A stretch of 53,269 nucleotides of DNA, taken from the NCBI GenBank assembly GCA_945868215.1, contig CAMBLN010000002.1, positions 1 through 53,269 on the forward strand, written 5' to 3'. Below the pieces are notes generated by a model. That model had not been told where the DNA came from. It searched no databases and worked only from the letters and a program-made list of their open reading frames with translations. Below are positions 7,222 to 16,733 of the stretch, in pieces (position 1 is the first letter of the stretch; each line of letters opens with the position of its first letter). The position numbers and the translations under genes were made by a program. Source of the stretch: Opitutus sp. GAS368. Lineage in GTDB: Bacteria > Verrucomicrobiota > Verrucomicrobiia > Opitutales > Opitutaceae.

Positions 7222-7851
7222 GTGAGTTATTACGTTCCCACCATCTTAGAGAGCACCGGCCGCGGTGAGCGCCAATGGGATGTCTTCAGCCGCCTGCTGA
7301 AGGATCGCATCATCTTCATCGGTTCGCCGATCGACGACATGGTCGCCAATCTGGTGATCGCGCAGATGCTGTTCCTGCAGATGGAGGACCCGAAGAAGGA
7401 CATCCACTTCTACATCAACTCGCCCGGCGGTGTCGTGACCGGTGGCATGGCCATCTATGACACGATGAACTTCCTGCAGTGCGACATCGTCACCTATTGC
7501 ATCGGCCAGGCGGCCAGCATGGCGACGGTGCTTCTCGCGGCGGGCACTCCCGGCAAGCGTTTCGCGCTGCCGAACAGCCGCGTGATGATCCACCAGCCCA
7601 GCGGTGGCGCGGGCGGCCAGACGGCCGACATCATGATCGCCTCCAAGGAGATCCTGCGCTGGCGCCAGACGCTCAACGGCGTCATTGCCAAACACACCGG
7701 CAAGACACCCGAGCAGGTGGAGAAGGACTCGGATCGCGATTACTACCTGAGCGCCCACGAAGCGAAGGCTTACGGCCTCGTCGATCACGTCGTCGAATCC
7801 ACCAAGGAAGTGGCGAAGGTTGTGCCGAGTGCCATTCCCAGCGCGGCCTGA
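7222..7851 (+). CDS. clpP: ATP-dependent Clp protease proteolytic subunit
   Basis: 209 residues, usual length. The serine-protease triad is in place: Ser in [14 protein letters not shown], His in SRVMIHQP, Asp in [10 protein letters not shown]. The handle region ([18 protein letters not shown]) is canonical. It forms the tetradecameric degradation chamber and works with ClpX encoded downstream. It uses GTG with an AAGGA ribosome-binding site 7 nt upstream (7210-7214), one of the clearer sites in the window. It lies 28 nt after tig, so is probably co-transcribed with it, and is followed by an intrinsic terminator that separates it from clpX. Confidence 0.96.
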
Positions 7852-7875
7852 TTCGCGATGAGCGGTTTTTAATTC

Positions 7876-7907
7876 AAGACGGTGACTTAACGGTCACCGT
7901 CTTTTTT
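7876..7907 (+). terminator. Intrinsic terminator after clpP
   Basis: A perfect 11-bp stem (7876-7886 with 7893-7903; left arm AAGACGGTGAC) closes a 6-nt loop (TTAACG) and runs into six Ts. It lies 25 nt after the clpP stop, 44 nt before clpX, so clpX must rely on readthrough or a promoter of its own. Confidence 0.9.
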
Positions 7908-7950
7908 CTGCACACTCGACAGCCGAACGAGCCGATAACACTCTTTACCT

Positions 7951-9252
7951 ATGGCCAAATCGTCACGCATGACCCTCTGCTCATTCTGCGGAAAATCGCA
8001 GTCCGAGGTGAAGAAGATCATCGCCGGGCCCGGCGTGCACATTTGCGACGCGTGCGTGAACGTCTGCAAAACCATCATCGACCGCGAGGTGAAGCAGCCG
8101 GCGGTGGATGCGAAGCCGGCGTTTCGGCTCATCAAGCCGGCGGAGGTCAAAGCGGCGCTGGACGACTTCGTGATCGGCCAGGACCACGCGAAAAAAGTTT
8201 TATCGGTCGCGGTCTATAATCACTACAAGCGACTGATGTTTGGCGCGGGTCAGACCTCCTCCGACAACGGGGCGCTTGCGCCGGAGTTCAACGAAGTGGA
8301 GATCGAGAAGAGCAACATCCTGCTCACGGGTCCGACCGGTTCGGGCAAGACGCTGCTGGCGCGCACGCTGGCCAAGGTGCTCGACGTGCCCTTCGCGATT
8401 TCCGACGCCACGACGCTGACCGAGGCGGGTTATGTGGGCGAAGACGTGGAGAACGTCGTGCTGCGTTTGTTGCAGGCGGCGAACTTCGACGTGAAGCGGG
8501 CGGAGTGCGGGATCATTTACATCGACGAAATCGACAAGATCGGACGCAAGACGGAGAACGTTTCCATCACGCGTGACGTGTCCGGCGAAGGCGTGCAGCA
8601 GGCGCTGCTGAAGATTTTGGAAGGCACGGTGTGCAACGTGCCTCCGCAGGGCGGACGCAAGCACCCGAACCAGGAATACGTGCAGATCAACACGGCGAAC
8701 ATTCTGTTTATCTGCGGCGGCGCGTTTGTGGGCCTTGACGGGATCATCGAGAAGCGCCTCGGTCAGCGCGGGCTCGGATTTGGGTCGATCAAGGCGCAGC
8801 AGACGCAGTCGGCGACGATGAGCGCCGAGAGCATCATGAAGTCGATCGAGCCCGGCGACCTCGTGCGCTACGGAATGATTCCGGAATTCATCGGGCGCCT
8901 GCCGGTGGTGTCGGTGCTGGAGCCGCTGCAGGTGGCGGATCTGGAAAAGATTTTGCTGCGCACGAAGAACGCGATGGTGAAGCAGTATTCGAAGCTCTTC
9001 GCGATGGACGGCGTGCGGTTGAAGTTCACGAGCGACGCGGTCAAGGCCATCGCGGCGAAAGCGGTGGAACTGAAGACGGGGGCGCGCGCGCTGCGTTCGA
9101 TCATGGAAAACCTGATGCTGGAGGTCATGTATGACCTGCCGAGCCGCAACGATGTGGTCGAGGTGGTGATTGATTCCAACGTGGTCGCCGGCAAACGGCG
9201 TCCGGCGATGCGCAAGGCGGTCAAAGGCGAGGCGGCTGAAGACGCGGCGTGA
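7951..9252 (+). CDS. clpX: ATP-dependent Clp protease ATP-binding subunit ClpX
   Basis: 433 residues. The N-terminal zinc-binding domain has C-x2-C (CSFC) and C-x2-C (CDAC) pairs. The AAA+ module has Walker A GPTGSGKT, Walker B IIYIDEID, the pore loop GYVGEDVE, and sensor/arginine-finger segments ([21 protein letters not shown]). The ClpP-binding IGF-type loop region appears as LGFGSIK near residue 270. It unfolds tagged substrates and feeds ClpP. No Shine-Dalgarno sequence is apparent before the ATG. Confidence 0.96.
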
Positions 9253-9302
9253 GGTTGATTTTTTCCGGGCGGGACTTAGACCCGTTCCAGTTTCAAAACC
9301 CC

Positions 9303-10094
9303 ATGAAGCTCTCCTTTGGTTATATGTCCCGTTGGTGGATTATGATGGTCGCGGTTATGGCGATCACCCATTCGGCCCAGGCATTGGTTATTTATGGTGG
9401 CGCGGCGGGGCAGACGACGGATCCGGGTGACGGTTTGCCTTGGGATAACGTGGGCAACACGGGAGTGTATCTCGGGGCTTACGACACCGGTTACTGGGTG
9501 ATCACGGCGAATCATGTCGGTTCGGGAGGGATCACGTTGGGCGGAGATTTTTATGCGTCGTTGGGTGGTTCGGCGCAACGCATCGGCACGACGGATTTGC
9601 TGCTGTATCGGATCAACGTCTCGACGCACGGTGCGCCGGAGTTGGAAAATTTAAACATCTCGCCGAGCACACCGGTGGCGGGCCAGCCGGTGGTGATGGT
9701 GGCGGATGGCGGCGGAACAATGACCTGGGGCACGAATACGGTTCATCAATACGCCAACTACAGTCTGAGTGAAGGCGGGCCGCAGACCGTGGGGTTAATC
9801 ACGACTTACAGCCCGATCACGGGGGAGGCGCAGGGACAGAGCGGGGATTCGGGCGGTGCGTTGTTTTATCAACAGCTCGACGGCAGCTGGCTGTTGAGCG
9901 GTATTTTGAGCGCCATCGGCACGAGTGAAGGCACGCAGTTTACCGCGTCGGTGGCGGTGGCGGCTTATTATGCCGACATCGTGGCGATCGTGGGCACCGC
10001 ACTGGCACCGATACCCGAGCCGGCAAGCGCGGCGGTGCTTGCGGGCGGGGTGGTTTTGGTTGCCGGCGGCTTTGCGCGCCGGCGCCGCGGATAA
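9303..10094 (+). CDS. Trypsin-like serine protease with PEP-CTERM sorting tail
   Basis: 263 residues from the ATG at 9303, which gives a signal peptide (WWIMMVAVMAITHSAQA). The core looks like a chymotrypsin-fold protease: VITANHVG supplies His, TTDLLLYRI the Asp, and GQSGDSGGALF the nucleophilic Ser with the oxyanion motif. The C-terminus is a textbook PEP-CTERM signal: IPEPASAAVLAGG, a hydrophobic helix, then ARRRRG. Such tails are recognised by exosortase/XrtA-type systems (known for the family; no exosortase is in this window). It would be an exported, sorted protease. The gene begins 50 nt after clpX but probably is independent. Its stop is only 10 nt from the convergent M42 peptidase. 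Confidence 0.85.
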   Translation: MKLSFGYMSRWWIMMVAVMAITHSAQALVIYGGAAGQTTDPGDGLPWDNVGNTGVYLGAYDTGYWVITANHVGSGGITLGGDFYASLGGSAQRIGTTDLLLYRINVSTHGAPELENLNISPSTPVAGQPVVMVADGGGTMTWGTNTVHQYANYSLSEGGPQTVGLITTYSPITGEAQGQSGDSGGALFYQQLDGSWLLSGILSAIGTSEGTQFTASVAVAAYYADIVAIVGTALAPIPEPASAAVLAGGVVLVAGGFARRRRG

Positions 10095-10104
10095 ACGGCG
10101 GGTG

Positions 10105-11172
10105 TTACCAGTGCAGGTATTCGCCCTTTTCGAGATCGAGGGCGAACTGGACGAAGAGTTGCACGGTGCGTTCGACGTCCTCGAGGTCCACGATTTCGCT
10201 CGGGGTGTGCATGTAGCGGAGGGGGATGCTCACGAGGCCCGTGGCGATACCGCTGCGGCCGACCTGGATGGCGCGGGCGTCGGTGCCGGTGGGGCGCGGG
10301 TCGGCTTCGAGCTGGTAGGGGATCTTGAGTTTCTTGGCGGCCTTCACGAGGCGCTCGTAAACCTTCGGGTTGATGTTGGGGCCGCGGCAGATGATCGGGC
10401 CGCCGCCGAGTTTGGTCTCGCCGTATTTGCGCTGGTCGCAGTCGGGGTGGTCGGTGGCGTGGCCGACATCGACGGCGAGGGCGACGTGGGGGTTGACGGC
10501 GTAGGCGGCGGTGATGGCGCCGCGCGTGCCGATTTCTTCCTGGGAAGTGGCGACGGAGACGAGTTTGGCCGCGGGTTTTTTCTTGGCGGCGGCGAGGCGG
10601 ATCAAGGTTTCGCCGACGACGTAGGCGCCGACCTTGTTGTCGAAAGCGCGGGCGGTGCCGATGCTGCCGTGGATGAGTTCAAACTCGTGGTCGTAGGTGA
10701 CGGTGTCGCCGATGGAGACGCGTTCGAGGGCGTCTTTTTTGGAAGAGGCGCCGATATCGATCCAGATCTCGTGCTTCTTGGGGACCTTCTTGCGGTCCTC
10801 CTCGTCCATGAGGTGGATGGCGCGTTTGCCGGTGACGCCTTTGATGGGGCCGTTGGAAGTCTGGATGACCACGCGGCGTCCGGAGATGATGCTCAGGTCG
10901 TGGCCGCCGATGGTGTCGAAGTAGATGAAACCGTCCTTGTTGACGAAGGTGATGATGAGGCCGAGTTCGTCCATGTGGCCGGCGAGCATGAGGACGGGGT
11001 CGCCCTTGGGGTTGAGCGTGGCGAGACGGTTGCCCATCGAGTCCTTGGCGTAGGTGTCGGCGGACGGTTTGACGTAATGATCGAAGACCTTTTGGGCCTC
11101 GAATTCGGCGCCGGACGGCGAGCGGGCGTGGAGGAGATCAACGAGAAAGGCGGGGGCCTGGTATTTGGACAT
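10105..11172 (-). CDS. M42-family metallopeptidase (aminopeptidase/endoglucanase-like)
   Basis: 355 residues. Ligands of the dinuclear metal site are visible: His in LAGHMDELG, the bridging Asp in RAFDNKVGA, the Glu pair in TSQEEIGTRG (general base plus ligand), Asp in AVDVGHATD and His in RYMHTPSEIV. M42 enzymes are cytosolic, dodecameric aminopeptidases; older annotations call them cellulases. It follows the FkbM gene with a 54-nt gap on the same strand and may be read from the same upstream operon, but its function does not connect obviously with it. Confidence 0.9.
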   Translation of the reverse strand: MSKYQAPAFLVDLLHARSPSGAEFEAQKVFDHYVKPSADTYAKDSMGNRLATLNPKGDPVLMLAGHMDELGLIITFVNKDGFIYFDTIGGHDLSIISGRRVVIQTSNGPIKGVTGKRAIHLMDEEDRKKVPKKHEIWIDIGASSKKDALERVSIGDTVTYDHEFELIHGSIGTARAFDNKVGAYVVGETLIRLAAAKKKPAAKLVSVATSQEEIGTRGAITAAYAVNPHVALAVDVGHATDHPDCDQRKYGETKLGGGPIICRGPNINPKVYERLVKAAKKLKIPYQLEADPRPTGTDARAIQVGRSGIATGLVSIPLRYMHTPSEIVDLEDVERTVQLFVQFALDLEKGEYLHW

Positions 11173-11226: not shown

Positions 11227-11982
11227 TCAAGGCAGGGGTTCGAAGAGATAATCGTGGTCGGGGGCGGGCACGGCGGGGCTGACCGTATTGACGGGAGTGA
11301 TACGGTAGCGAAGCGGGGTGAGCACGGCGAGGACACCGCTGATTTCGGCCTCGGTGTGAAAACCGATCAGCAGCACGGGGCGGCAGCGGGCCAAGGTGGC
11401 GGCGGCACCGGCGAGGGCTTTGTGACCGTGGCCCTCGACATCCACTTTGATGAAGTCGGGCGGGTTGATTTCGCCGGAGGCGACAAGGTCGTCGAGCCGC
11501 ACGGCGGGCACGTGCATCGAAGGAATGGATTCGTCCCAGGTTTCGTTTTCGTAGGCGAGGTGGGAGGAGGTGCTTTCCAGTCCCTCGTAGAGAAAAAAGC
11601 GCTGATTGCCGGCTTGGTCACTCACGGCGCACGGGAAGGTTTTGACGTGGGCGAGACGGTTGCGGCGCACGTGAAGGGCGAGGCGGGCGTGACTGAGCGG
11701 GTTGGGCTCGAAAGCGGCGACGCTGCCGGTCGGGCCGGCGCGCAGACCCAGCCCGACGACGAACAGCCCGTAATGACTGCCGAGGTCCCAGACATGAGCG
11801 CCGGTCCAGTCGGAACGCAGGGCGAGGATGCAAGCCTGCGCCGCGGGTTCATGCGTGCCGCGCCAGTAGGCGGTCCACGGGAAAAATGTCCATCGGGCCC
11901 CTTTGGCGACGCCGCCACGCACGCGCACGGGAAGACGGGCGATGACCGGCAGCGAAAGAAACCGGCGCAGAAGATCGGGCAT
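11227..11982 (-). CDS. FkbM family methyltransferase
   Basis: 251 residues. A class I SAM-binding fold is visible: VWDLGSHYGLFVVGLG (motif I), AFEPNPLSHARL, and the FkbM hallmark DFIKVDVEGHGHKALAGA. Family members O-methylate sugars, glycolipids or natural products. It starts 3 nt after the oxidoreductase stop and is downstream of an asnB-like gene and a glycosyltransferase, which suggests modification of a surface polysaccharide. The actual acceptor cannot be told from sequence. Confidence 0.85.
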   Translation of the reverse strand: MPDLLRRFLSLPVIARLPVRVRGGVAKGARWTFFPWTAYWRGTHEPAAQACILALRSDWTGAHVWDLGSHYGLFVVGLGLRAGPTGSVAAFEPNPLSHARLALHVRRNRLAHVKTFPCAVSDQAGNQRFFLYEGLESTSSHLAYENETWDESIPSMHVPAVRLDDLVASGEINPPDFIKVDVEGHGHKALAGAAATLARCRPVLLIGFHTEAEISGVLAVLTPLRYRITPVNTVSPAVPAPDHDYLFEPLP

Positions 11983-11985
11983 GGG

Positions 11986-13377
11986 TCAGCGCTTGATCTG
12001 GTCGGCGATTTCCTCGAGCGGGTAGGTGAGGATCTCGGCGAGCGTGGGGTGATACCACGGGGCGCGGAGGAGATCGAAGACGGTGGCCCGCATGGCGAGA
12101 GGTCCGCTGAAAATGTGGATCAATTCGCCGGCCTGCGCGCCGACGATCTCGGCGCCGAGGATGCGGCCGCGTTGGGGTTCGGCGATGACCTTCACGTAGC
12201 CGTGGTTGGCGTCCATGAGGATGGACTTGCCGTGGTCGTTGAACGGATACGTGGCGACGAGGAATTTTTCGCCGCGTTCGGTGAGTTCGGCTTCCTGCAC
12301 GCCGATGGTGGCGAGGGGAGGTTCGGTGAACACGACGTTGAGTAGGAGCGCGTGGTCGATGGGCTTGATGCCTTTGACACCGAACGCGTGGCGGGCGGCG
12401 AGTTCGCCCTGGGCGACGGCGAGGTGGACGATGTCGTGGGGGCCGGCGACGTCACCGCCGGCGTAGATGTGGCCGGCGGTGGATTGCTGCCAGCGGTTGG
12501 TTTTCACGCGACCGGAGTCGGTGAGTTTCACGCCGGCGGCGGCGAGATTGAGACCGGCGGTGTTGGGCTCGCGACCGAGGGCGTTAAAAAGATGGCGGGC
12601 GCGACGGACGCGGGTTTTGCCACCGCTGGTGAATTTGACGACGACGCCTCTTTTGTCGCCGGAGATGGCGGTGATTTTTGTGTCGGTGTGGAGACCGATG
12701 CCGTCGTCGCGGAACGCCTGCTGGACGACCTCGCTGGCGGCGGGGGAGTGGTCTTTAAGAATGTTTTTGCTGCGCTGGATGAGCGTGACCTTGGAGCCGA
12801 TGCGGCGGAGGAACTGGGCGAGTTCGCAGGCGACGATGCCGCCGCCGAGGACGATCACGCTCTCGGGGATAAAATCGAGATCGAGGACATCGTCGCTGGT
12901 CCAGAAAGGGGTGGCGGCGAGTCCGGGGACGGCGGAAGGCACGCTGACCTTGGAGCCGGTGGCGACGAGGAATTTTTTGGCGGTGAGTTGTTTGCCGTCG
13001 GCGAGTTCGACGGTGTGCGGATCGACGAAACGGGCGTGGCTGCGGAAGACGTCGTATTTGCCGGATTCGAGGGCCTGGGCGCGGTAGGCGGCGAATTCGC
13101 CGATGATTTTTTTCTTACGCGCGTGGAGGGCCTTCATGTCGGCTTTGGCCGAAGGGATTTTGAGGCCGAAGGTTTTGCCCTTTTGGGCGAGGTGGAGGAC
13201 GTCGGTCGAGTAGAGGAGGGTTTTGGACGGCATGCAGCCGTTGAGGATGCAAAGGCCGGCGATGACCTTGGCGCCATCGACGACGGCGACGCGTTTGCCG
13301 AGGGAAGCGGCGGTGCGGGCGGCGTTGAAACCGGCGGAGCCGCCGCCGATCACCAGAAAATCGTAGGGAGTGGACAT
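11986..13377 (-). CDS. Pyridine nucleotide-disulfide oxidoreductase (dihydrolipoyl dehydrogenase-like)
   Basis: 463 residues. FAD-binding GGGSAGFNAA at the N-terminus, a redox-active CILNGC disulfide (residues about 43-48) followed by MPSKTLL, the NAD(P) site VIVLGGGIVACELAQFL, HIYAGGDVAGPHD, and the dimer-interface His in YHPTLAEIL are all intact. This is the lipoamide dehydrogenase/mercuric reductase/glutathione reductase superfamily; the closest type looks like a generic 'dihydrolipoyl dehydrogenase family' protein without other 2-oxoacid dehydrogenase genes nearby. It begins 7 nt after the chimeric remnant and sits unexpectedly inside a polysaccharide-type operon. Confidence 0.88.
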   Translation of the reverse strand: MSTPYDFLVIGGGSAGFNAARTAASLGKRVAVVDGAKVIAGLCILNGCMPSKTLLYSTDVLHLAQKGKTFGLKIPSAKADMKALHARKKKIIGEFAAYRAQALESGKYDVFRSHARFVDPHTVELADGKQLTAKKFLVATGSKVSVPSAVPGLAATPFWTSDDVLDLDFIPESVIVLGGGIVACELAQFLRRIGSKVTLIQRSKNILKDHSPAASEVVQQAFRDDGIGLHTDTKITAISGDKRGVVVKFTSGGKTRVRRARHLFNALGREPNTAGLNLAAAGVKLTDSGRVKTNRWQQSTAGHIYAGGDVAGPHDIVHLAVAQGELAARHAFGVKGIKPIDHALLLNVVFTEPPLATIGVQEAELTERGEKFLVATYPFNDHGKSILMDANHGYVKVIAEPQRGRILGAEIVGAQAGELIHIFSGPLAMRATVFDLLRAPWYHPTLAEILTYPLEEIADQIKR

Positions 13378-13383
13378 GGGGGA

Positions 13384-13762
13384 TCAGACAACCGGATGGA
13401 CGGTGGCGGCGGAGTCAAGGGTGCGGCGGGCGCGACGCCGGCGCCATTGCTCGAACGGGGTTTCGACCCAGCGGTAGAATAACCAGGCGGGGATCAGCGA
13501 AAGCGCGGTGAGGGCGACGGGAATCCACGCCTGATGGGGGGCCGAGTCGGGCAAGCAGGTTCATGCCCGGACTGATGAACGGAACGTGGATCAGGTAGAG
13601 GGAATAGGAAAACAGGCCGATCCAGCCGAGGAAGGCGAGCGCACGGGTGCCGGCGAGGACGCCGAGCAATTCGCGGTAGCGCCAGAGATCGGCCCAGTAG
13701 TGGCGTTCGGCGCGACCGGCTTCGATGACGAGGGTGGGAGGTTCTCCGGCGGGCGAACTCAT
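13384..13762 (-). pseudogene. Chimeric remnant: polysaccharide ABC-permease N-terminus fused to acyltransferase C-terminus, frameshifted
   Basis: The ATG at 13762 overlaps the glycosyltransferase stop (ATGA). The first ~40 residues (PPTLVIEAGRAERHYWADLW, then RYRELLGVL) match the start of ABC-2 polysaccharide-export permeases. Without a stop it continues as LAFLGWIGLFSYSLYLIH, a C-terminal segment of an acyltransferase-3 type protein. A run of six G (13536-13541, plus strand) then breaks the frame; removing one base restores it to AWIPVALTALSLIPAWLFYR and WVETPFEQW, ending at 13384. So two genes appear to have been fused by an internal deletion and the product then frameshifted. It may instead be one sequencing error in a homopolymer on top of a genuine fusion. 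Family assignments are by motif recognition. Confidence 0.65.
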
Positions 13763-14838
13763 GCGGCGAGAAGGCGTTTCACGTTGGCGAGAAAGACTGG
13801 ATAGGAAAAGCGCGCGGCGCACGCGCGAATTGCGGCTGCATCCCAGGAAGCGGACAATGCGTTGGCGCAGGCGGCGGCGAGTGCGGGGACGTCGCCGTAG
13901 GGAACGAGCAGACCGCTTTCGGGGGTGATGACCTCGGGGGCGCCGCCGGCCTGCGCGGCGATGCACGGTTTCCCGTGGGACATGGCTTCGAGATAAACGA
14001 GACCAAAGCCCTCTTTCTGGCTGGGCAGGGCGAAAACGGTGCAGCGGGCGAATTCGTGGCGGAGCTGGCGGTCGTCGACGTAGCCGGCGAATTCCACGGC
14101 GGCGTCCACGCGATGTTCGCGGACGAGGTTTTGGAGGCGGTGGATGTCGTCGCCGCGGCCGACGATGCGAAGCTTGGTGCCGGGCGCGGCGGCGAGGACG
14201 GCGGGCATGGCCGCGATGAGGTGGTCGATGCCCTTGTAGTTGTCGGAGGCGGAGAGACGGGAGACGGCGAGGATGACCGGCTGGCTCGTGGTGATGTGGG
14301 CGGAGTCGATGCCGTCGGGGTGAAGATTGGGGTCGAGCGCGTTGGGGAGGACGATGACGCGGGCGGGGTCGAGTTGGACGTTTTTGAGGATTTCGTTGCG
14401 CGTGAATTCGCTTACGCAGAGGACGCGCCAGGCGCCTTTGAGGGCGCGACGCTCCCAGAAACCGAAGGGACGCCATGCCTCGATTCCGTGGGCGACGAGC
14501 GCGTAGCGCAGGCCGGGGCGCAGGCGGCTGGCGAGCCAGGCGACGGGAAGCTGGGCGACGTGGCCGCAGACGATGAGTTTTATGCCTGAACTCAGGCCGA
14601 GGGTGTTGCGGACGAAGCGGCCCTTGTCGCGTCCGCAGGCTTCCCAGCGTTCAAGCACGTCGGGGAGGGAATAAGGGCGGAGGTCGGCCGAGTCGACGGA
14701 CGTGTCGTTGAGGGCGATGAAACGCACATGATCGTCGGGGCCGGCGAGATCGCAGAGGGCTTTGAGGTAGAGCCGGAGGATGCGCGGTATGCCGCTGTCG
14801 GTGGTGAAAAGCTCGGGTGCGAGCAGCAGCGTGTTCAT
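13759..14838 (-). CDS. GT4-type glycosyltransferase
   Basis: 359 residues, starting at 14838 where ATGA overlaps the asnB stop. The N-terminal acceptor domain has NTLLLAPELFTTDSGIPR, and the C-terminal donor domain has VILAVSRLSASDNYKG, LRIVGRGDD, VEFAGYVDDRQL, and the E-x7-E type motif in PSQKEGFGLVYLEAMSHGKP. These are features of GT-B, family 4 retaining enzymes that transfer a sugar from a nucleotide donor during capsule, EPS or lipopolysaccharide assembly. The second overlap with the remnant downstream (13759-13762) indicates tight translational coupling of asnB, this gene and the former permease. Confidence 0.88.
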   Translation of the reverse strand: MNTLLLAPELFTTDSGIPRILRLYLKALCDLAGPDDHVRFIALNDTSVDSADLRPYSLPDVLERWEACGRDKGRFVRNTLGLSSGIKLIVCGHVAQLPVAWLASRLRPGLRYALVAHGIEAWRPFGFWERRALKGAWRVLCVSEFTRNEILKNVQLDPARVIVLPNALDPNLHPDGIDSAHITTSQPVILAVSRLSASDNYKGIDHLIAAMPAVLAAAPGTKLRIVGRGDDIHRLQNLVREHRVDAAVEFAGYVDDRQLRHEFARCTVFALPSQKEGFGLVYLEAMSHGKPCIAAQAGGAPEVITPESGLLVPYGDVPALAAACANALSASWDAAAIRACAARFSYPVFLANVKRLLAA

Positions 14839-16733
14839 GGGTGGGAGTAAGCGGGACGGGGACGGTTGATGAACGCGATGAGAATAGCCAGCGACCAGAC
14901 GCGCGACCATTCGAGCGTGTCGTTGCCCGCGAGAAAGCGGCACCAGTGGGCCTGCACCGCGGCGGAATCGAAAAGTCCGCTGCGGCCCACGCTGGCGGAG
15001 GAGAACGTGTCTTCGAGAAACGGTTTGAGCGGACCGCGCATCCAGACGGCGTAGGGCAGGGTGAAGCCGCGTTTTTTGCGCGTGAGCAGATCGGGAGGCA
15101 GCAGGTCGGCGAGGGCGTGGGCGAGGGCGGATTTGGGCTGGGCGGGGGTGTGTTTGAACGCGGCGGGCTGGCAGCTGACCCAGTTGACGAACCGGCGGTC
15201 GACAAAAGGCACGCGCAGTTCGAGGGAGTGGCGCATGCTCATCACGTCGCTGTCACGCAGGAGCACGTCGGCCATGTAGCCGCGCACGTCGGCGAGGCTG
15301 GCGACGGAGAAGAGACCGGCGTCGCGCAGGCCGGCGGCGAGCGGAGCCTCTTCGGGGTGGGGTGCGTAGGCGGGGGCGACTCCGGGGGCGAGCAGGGAGC
15401 GGCGGGTGGATTCGCCGAAAACGCGCCGTTGCAGAAGGGCGAGCGAGGCGGGGGAGGTGGCGTGGCGGAGGGTGCCGGCGAGCTTGCGGGAGCGGGTGTT
15501 GCCGCGGTCCCAGCGGGCGAGGAGGACGTTGCGTATCGGCGCAGGCACTACATGCCAGACCGGCAGCCAGCGGGTGAGCCGGAACGTGTTGCCGAGGGAC
15601 GAATAGCCGCCGAAGAGTTCGTCGGCGCCGAGTCCGGAGAGGGCGACGGTGACGCCGCCGGCGCGGGCGGCCTGGCTGGCATAATAGGTGTTGATGCCGT
15701 CGCCGGTGGGTTGGTCGAGCGAGGCGAGCAGTGTGCCGATGTCGCCGGCGACGCGCGCGCCGGTGAGGACCGACGCGTGGTGGTCGGCGCCGAGGTGGCG
15801 GGCGTTGGCGGCGGCGGCTTCGGCTTCGGAGTAGCCGGCGTCCTCAAAGCCTATGGAAAAGGTCTTGAGTTGAGCGCCGCCGAGGCGGGACATGAGCGCG
15901 ACGAGCGCGGTCGAGTCGAGTCCGCCGGAGAGAAACGCACCGACCGGCACGTCGGCGACGACGTGGGCGCGCACGGTGTCCTCGAGTTGGGCGCGGAGGC
16001 CGGTGGTGAATTCTTCGCTGGAACGGGCGGGGGTGAAACCGGGGGGCGGGGTGAGTAGATCGCGGGCGGTGTCGTAGGCGGAGATCGAGAGTTTGCCGCC
16101 ATGCCATTCGGCATATTCGCCGGGGCGCAGGCTTTGCACGGCGCGGTAGATGGTGCGCGGTGCGGGGACGGAGAGCCACGCGAGGTAGTCGCTGACGGCT
16201 TGCGGATCGATGTCGGAGGGAACGTGACCGGAGGCAAGAAGCGCGTTGAGTTCGGAGGCGAAGAGAAGGCCGCCGTCGGAGGAGGTGTGAACGTAAAGCG
16301 GCTTGATGCCGAACGAATCGCGGGCGAGCAGGAGAGTGTGTTCGACGGCATCCCAGGCGGCGAAGGCAAACATGCCTCGCAGGCGGGGAAGGGCGTTGCG
16401 ACCCCAGCGGGCGATGGCGGCGAGCAGCACCTCGGTGTCGCACTCGGTTTTGAACACGTGGGACGACGCGAGCTCGGTGCGGAGGGCGCGGAAGTTGTAG
16501 ATCGCGCCGTTGAAAATCAGATGCCAGCGGCCGTCGGCCGTGCTCATGGGTTGGTGGCCGTGGGCGGGGTCGAAGATGGCGAGGCGCCTTATGCCGAGAG
16601 TGGCCTCACCCCGCGATTCGGTTCCGATGTCGTCGGGGCCACGATGAAGCATGGCTGCATTCATGCGGCCGACGGCTGCGGAGCGCAGTTCAAGCGTTTG
16701 CCGTGAGCTAATGTAACCGGCTATTCCGCACAT
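14835..16733 (-). CDS. asnB: Asparagine synthetase (glutamine-hydrolysing)-like protein
   Basis: 632 residues. The N-terminal Ntn glutaminase domain begins MCGIAGYI with Cys2 as nucleophile and contains HRGPDDIG and LGIRRLAIFD; the C-terminal synthetase has the PP-loop FLSGGLDSTALVAL and LSGLGADELFGGY. The conserved glutaminase motif NGEIYN reads NGAIYN here, replacing the Glu that contacts the substrate glutamine amino group in the E. coli enzyme (residue 76 there), so the amide-transfer half may be altered. AsnB homologues of this length are common in exopolysaccharide clusters, where they may amidate sugars or peptides; here it heads such an operon. The 180 nt upstream contain the terminator of the previous gene and presumably the promoter. 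Confidence 0.88.
   Translation of the reverse strand: MCGIAGYISSRQTLELRSAAVGRMNAAMLHRGPDDIGTESRGEATLGIRRLAIFDPAHGHQPMSTADGRWHLIFNGAIYNFRALRTELASSHVFKTECDTEVLLAAIARWGRNALPRLRGMFAFAAWDAVEHTLLLARDSFGIKPLYVHTSSDGGLLFASELNALLASGHVPSDIDPQAVSDYLAWLSVPAPRTIYRAVQSLRPGEYAEWHGGKLSISAYDTARDLLTPPPGFTPARSSEEFTTGLRAQLEDTVRAHVVADVPVGAFLSGGLDSTALVALMSRLGGAQLKTFSIGFEDAGYSEAEAAAANARHLGADHHASVLTGARVAGDIGTLLASLDQPTGDGINTYYASQAARAGGVTVALSGLGADELFGGYSSLGNTFRLTRWLPVWHVVPAPIRNVLLARWDRGNTRSRKLAGTLRHATSPASLALLQRRVFGESTRRSLLAPGVAPAYAPHPEEAPLAAGLRDAGLFSVASLADVRGYMADVLLRDSDVMSMRHSLELRVPFVDRRFVNWVSCQPAAFKHTPAQPKSALAHALADLLPPDLLTRKKRGFTLPYAVWMRGPLKPFLEDTFSSASVGRSGLFDSAAVQAHWCRFLAGNDTLEWSRVWSLAILIAFINRPRPAYSHP

Follow-up and report, generated by a model that had tools for sequence, protein, structure and literature searches.

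The locus described here is best compared with Wzm/Wzt loci for polysaccharide or O-antigen export and with deletion-fusion pseudogenes. As in the former, the corresponding segment in congeners carries an ABC2_membrane permease, a Wzt_C ATPase, glycosyltransferases and a Bac_transf sugar transferase, whereas the genome studied here (G000) retains only about the first 37 codons of the permease, and its locus is dead as an exporter. As for the latter, chimeric relics are known to be left behind by large deletions; a literature search yielded no paper on this particular locus among the matches listed, which is no proof of absence.

An earlier reading of the sequence had proposed that an internal deletion removed most of an export/modification segment from this operon. 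Comparison with relatives makes it very probable that such a deletion fused the start of the permease gene to the end of an acyltransferase-3 (AT3) gene, leaving a non-functional relic.

The chimeric frame and its neighbours

In the window, the whole 53,269-nucleotide stretch of DNA analysed, the chimera lies on the minus strand, its ATG (13762-13760) overlapping the stop of the GT4 glycosyltransferase gene (13761-13759), and both the extent and the ATGA coupling given by the sequence-only reading are correct. From 13762, the frame encodes the start of a Wzm-type ABC-2 permease, about 36 residues, followed by an AT3 end, continuing without a stop through the motif FSYSLYLIH until it closes at 13417-13415, 37 bases ahead of the oxidoreductase start. 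The sequence-only reading had described a switch without a stop into an AT3 C-terminus carrying two motifs; the AT3 end is real and FSYSLYLIH is indeed in frame, but the second motif, WVETPFEQW, sits in the neighbouring frame, which stops at 13386-13384. A single frame holding both motifs does not exist, as the AT3 coding sequence switches frame at a C6 run, a break that had been missed. The AT3 stop is separated from the oxidoreductase ATG at 13377 by 6 bases. The join itself is ambiguous over about 12 bases because a leucine-alanine pair suits both parents (Table 1). With some 37 of about 278 codons left, the locus holds no full-length permease, and the chimeric product, which has lost the greater part of each parent protein, almost certainly has no function.

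Table 1. Features of the relic and its flanking genes (window coordinates)
Feature	Position	Strand	Basis and remarks
asnB-type asparagine synthase, 632 aa	14835..16733	-	Intact, first operon gene; Pfam Asn_synthase, GATase_7
GT4 glycosyltransferase	13759..14874	-	Intact; Pfam Glyco_trans_1_4; stop overlaps chimera ATG
Permease remnant, Wzm-type ABC-2	13652..13762	-	First ~36-37 of ~278 codons; relative loci and DNA alignment
Deletion junction (probable)	13649..13660	-	Leucine-alanine codons 13657-13652 suit both parents
AT3 remnant	13384..13651	-	Last ~85-90 residues, in two frames; native stop 13386-13384
C6 run with AT3 frame change	13536..13541	-	Permease frame then ends at 13415
Pyridine nucleotide-disulphide oxidoreductase-type flavoprotein	11986..13377	-	Right flank of the probable deletion; named by resemblance (mercA)
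FkbM-type methyltransferase	11227..11982	-	Downstream flank; Pfam Methyltransf_21; same place in G003, G069, G174, G058, G028
M42-type aminopeptidase-like gene	10105..11172	-	Downstream flank marker; named by resemblance

The names mercA, M42, pfpI and gliding-type are given by resemblance. At E<=1e-30, asnB is matched in 12 of the 13 genus genomes (own genome counted), with no such match in G007 and a partial match at only 38% in G008. Outside the genus, the asnB of G028 matches in three pieces. Orthologues of the GT4 glycosyltransferase, 60-81% identical, occur in 10 congeners and were not found in G007 or G008, while each of the 12 congeners searched has an orthologue (81-91%) of the flavoprotein oxidoreductase. 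Further downstream, window positions 9249-10094 encode a predicted secreted serine-protease-like protein with a putative PEP-CTERM-like tail.

The suggestion that the deletion had orphaned the FkbM gene does not stand. This gene also lies behind the oxidoreductase in G003, where permease and ATPase genes are present on another contig, and in both G069 and G174, whose sugar transferase-AT3 end is intact. G010, G001 and G011 lack it, and there the oxidoreductase is followed by the M42-type gene. In G005 (L055, G005:C70) the match to FkbM downstream of the oxidoreductase falls into two pieces, and in G007 (L060, G007:C82) it covers residues 127-251 only; the gene may be decaying in these congeners too. 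In G008 the oxidoreductase lies in different surroundings, beside genes resembling osmC and argH (L057, G008:C138); with the GT4 orthologue absent and the oxidoreductase in another neighbourhood, a further loss of the operon is possible there.

The corresponding segment in congeners

To place the permease half, 18 loci were fetched around the orthologous glycosyltransferase, 10 from congeners and 8 from other family members. The 37 N-terminal residues of the chimera correspond to an ABC-2 permease start at 70-92% identity in 16 of these loci (73-92% in 8 of the 10 congeners), bearing out the permease assignment, and the matching start lies downstream of the glycosyltransferase orthologue by less than 100 bases in 12 loci, about 0.5 kb in three and 2 kb in one. 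The two exceptions, G003 and G005, carry a more distant permease downstream of the glycosyltransferase, matching at just 57% over 14 residues. Wherever the downstream gene was read whole it encodes an ABC-2 permease about 278 residues long, and an ATPase gene comes after it. Pfam gave no family match for the chimera's first 37 residues, and the DNA similarity of this part to relatives stops near 13652. Over 36 codons, the stump differs from its counterpart in G004 by 18 synonymous and 3 non-synonymous changes and has therefore hardly decayed, which suggests that the deletion would be recent relative to the G000-G004 divergence. The equivalent comparison with G009 (4 synonymous, 27 non-synonymous) was dropped, an indel shifting the codons. 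No other genome of the genus, of the 12 searched, has the same two halves as one protein, the finding named in advance as contradicting a deletion; the hits to query residues 1-97 in G001 and 7-94 in G010 lie within full-length permease genes and are not fusions.

Between glycosyltransferase and oxidoreductase, G000 has 384 bp, compared with 22,855-29,606 bp in the five of 12 congeners that carry both flanking genes on one contig (G010 28.1, G004 29.6, G011 25.4, G002 23.9 and G001 22.9 kb). The remaining seven give no information on the gap because the flanks lie on different contigs (G003, G005, G006, G009 and G012) or the glycosyltransferase is missing (two genomes). A simple gene call placed 13-19 genes in each of the five gaps, none on the opposite strand, although this caller is crude and left a quarter to half of each gap unassigned. 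The space between the flanks holds a permease and an ATPase, which the sequence-only reading had suggested looking for in related strains, together with glycosyltransferases and a sugar transferase. Eight of 10 segment proteins from G010 and G002 belong to a Pfam family (ABC2_membrane, ABC_tran with Wzt_C, GT2/GT1 or Bac_transf), and in both genomes the ABC2_membrane gene adjoins the ABC_tran/Wzt_C gene, as in Wzm/Wzt loci, with Wzt_C below cut-off in G002. In 10 of 12 congeners a Bac_transf sugar transferase precedes the oxidoreductase on its contig, and in seven of the 12 this gene, not AT3, adjoins the oxidoreductase within 40 bases.

The missing genes were also sought elsewhere in the G000 assembly, which is 99.8% complete in 220 contigs, and no orthologue of the segment's ATPase or sugar transferase was found anywhere in it. 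The best G000 match to full Wzt reaches 32% over residues 57-251 and the longest, on contig C86, 27% over residues 57-331; neither amounts to an ATPase with a Wzt-type C-terminus. Wzt_C (PF14524) has no match in G000 but is a weak marker, the same model missing four of 12 congeners including G001, which has the ATPase gene. Elsewhere in G000, two matches to PF01061 rise above cut-off: the ABC pair on C86 was rejected as the lost exporter, its neighbours looking like a gliding-type transporter by resemblance, and the match on C108 lies in a 620-residue frame. G000 has a single Bac_transf gene, which is divided between the ends of contigs C93 and C188 and shares 40-46% identity with the copies in congeners, those being 60-79% identical to that of G010; by this comparison it is a paralogue and not the segment's sugar transferase. 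Two DNA stretches of G010 (18.3 and 17.8 kb) covering flanks and segment matched the window's flanks, all other matches being 43-165 bases long; of the first-look candidates, 40 of 153 in one search and 40 of 143 in the other were scored. Relocation of the segment within G000 was thus recognised neither by the Wzt protein nor by the DNA searches with 40 candidates scored in each; given this scope, and since glycosyltransferase genes vary between congeners, those that were variable in the lost segment may have escaped detection.

Gene order and joins in other genera

The AT3 half was traced through the family. Pfam PF01757 matches the AT3 part of the chimera weakly (E 0.0027, under cut-off), and the AT3 end finds matches at E<=0.01 in 52 of 150 family genomes, own genome counted. 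Its last 85-90 residues or so align with residues ~271-356 of AT3 proteins 356-365 residues long, for which we picked the start codons. As the nearest AT3 relatives are only about 45-53% identical, the right breakpoint and any short homology there cannot be fixed to the base.

From the 67 AT3 match places listed apart from the window's own, 17 loci were fetched, six of which contain the oxidoreductase (G159, G069, G124, G153, G174 and G058). All six have AT3 sequence immediately upstream of it, the sugar transferase lies upstream of AT3 in all except G159, and FkbM follows the oxidoreductase in G069, G174 and G058, the G153 contig ending there. In G069, G124, G153 and G174, AT3 is full length and the order is sugar transferase-AT3-oxidoreductase. 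The ancestral order was most likely asnB-GT4-permease-ATPase-many genes-sugar transferase-AT3-oxidoreductase-FkbM-M42-type gene; for the ancestor of G000, we infer the AT3-oxidoreductase part from other genera, the close congeners having the sugar transferase in that place. In G058 (g47; L108, G058:C29, 3797-4248), AT3 stands beside the oxidoreductase without its middle, residues 4-41 and 246-355 remaining in different frames, while the sugar transferase is kept.

Two other genomes carry comparable joins. In G159 (g58, like G069 and G124; L095, G159:C9, 3077-4486), one open frame unites asnB residues 1-336 with the last ~130 AT3 residues, the oxidoreductase being directly downstream. In G028 (g17; L049, G028:C39:23000-42900, reverse strand, oriented 7629-8472), ATPase (Wzt) residues 1-172 are joined to sugar transferase residues 335-444, the oxidoreductase follows, and the frame breaks again about 120 bases past the junction; alignment placed this breakpoint no more sharply than that of G000. 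Outside the genus, the search covered the AT3 half in the 150 family genomes and turned up the differing G159 fusion. A contig-database scan gave 10 loci, four of them in closer relatives (56-81%).

We take the three collapses to be independent, as their partners differ and they occur in three different genera. All three large collapses (G000, G159 and G028) were joined in frame, although G000 was picked for its in-frame junction, so that two of the three cases are free of this bias, and an outcome with a one-in-nine chance carries no evidential weight alone. The collapse might be convergent and constrained, in that in at least three genera of one family the exporter is removed, the deletion ends inside the last gene before the flavoprotein and the join is in frame; selection against the polymer, for example by phage attack, with expression of the flavoprotein kept, would fit such a pattern, but we regard this as doubtful.

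Origin of the relic

The deletion that we favour would have been a single event of about 23-30 kb, a size estimated from the congeners, cutting from permease codon ~37 to AT3 codon ~271 and taking the rest of the permease, the ATPase, the glycosyltransferases, the sugar transferase and the first ~270 AT3 codons. The stumps would have been joined in frame at the short stretch suiting both parents, presumably by illegitimate or short-homology recombination, the AT3 stump gaining its frame break then or earlier. Upstream, asnB and the GT4 gene are still present, and they are left without exporter genes as first proposed; downstream, the flavoprotein, FkbM and M42-type genes are present as well, the flavoprotein gene probably still in the same transcription unit. 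The cell, judging by gene content, probably no longer exports this polymer by this route.

That AT3 was instead truncated first and the export genes lost later, in two or more separate deletions, is unlikely: AT3 alone has eroded in G058, and the spacing in seven of the 12 congeners leaves no room for AT3 before the oxidoreductase, but given the order sugar transferase-AT3-oxidoreductase in the four genomes with full-length AT3, one deletion suffices and would explain the scar. An artefact, in which a complex region rich in glycosyltransferase genes was passed over during assembly and its two ends were connected, is more improbable still. The contig count, the splitting of the only G000 sugar transferase gene itself over two contig ends, and the scoring of only part of the candidates in the searches for missing pieces are all compatible with it; a skipped region should, however, leave pieces on other contigs, and none was recognised by Wzt protein or DNA. 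Moreover, the join cuts into two coding genes that keep the operon's order and orientation, is in frame with few bases fitting both sides, and has similar but different counterparts in G159 and G028.

It is hard to credit that the chimera works as a small fusion protein, or that it has been retained so that translation runs on into the downstream flavoprotein gene. The ATGA overlap with the glycosyltransferase stop, the in-frame junctions in G000, G159 and G028, and the short distance from the AT3 stop to the oxidoreductase start would suit such a role, but the frame breaks within the AT3 stump and stops well short of the oxidoreductase, the G028 frame also breaks past its junction, most of both parent proteins is gone, and none of the other genus genomes carries the fusion.

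The locus resembles deletion-fusion pseudogenes, in which two partial genes are joined whose parents are intact and apart in relatives. Here too there are two stumps in operon order and orientation, one join point and a further frame break. Taken as a single case, the relic represents ordinary genome decay, and a clean example of how a surface-polymer pathway can be lost in one step. What sets it apart from such pseudogenes is that two more genera have comparable joins, with other partners, at this locus, which seems to have undergone repeated collapse within the family. Should in-frame collapse prove recurrent more widely, with a similar right boundary, the polymer would look dispensable and the downstream gene protected.
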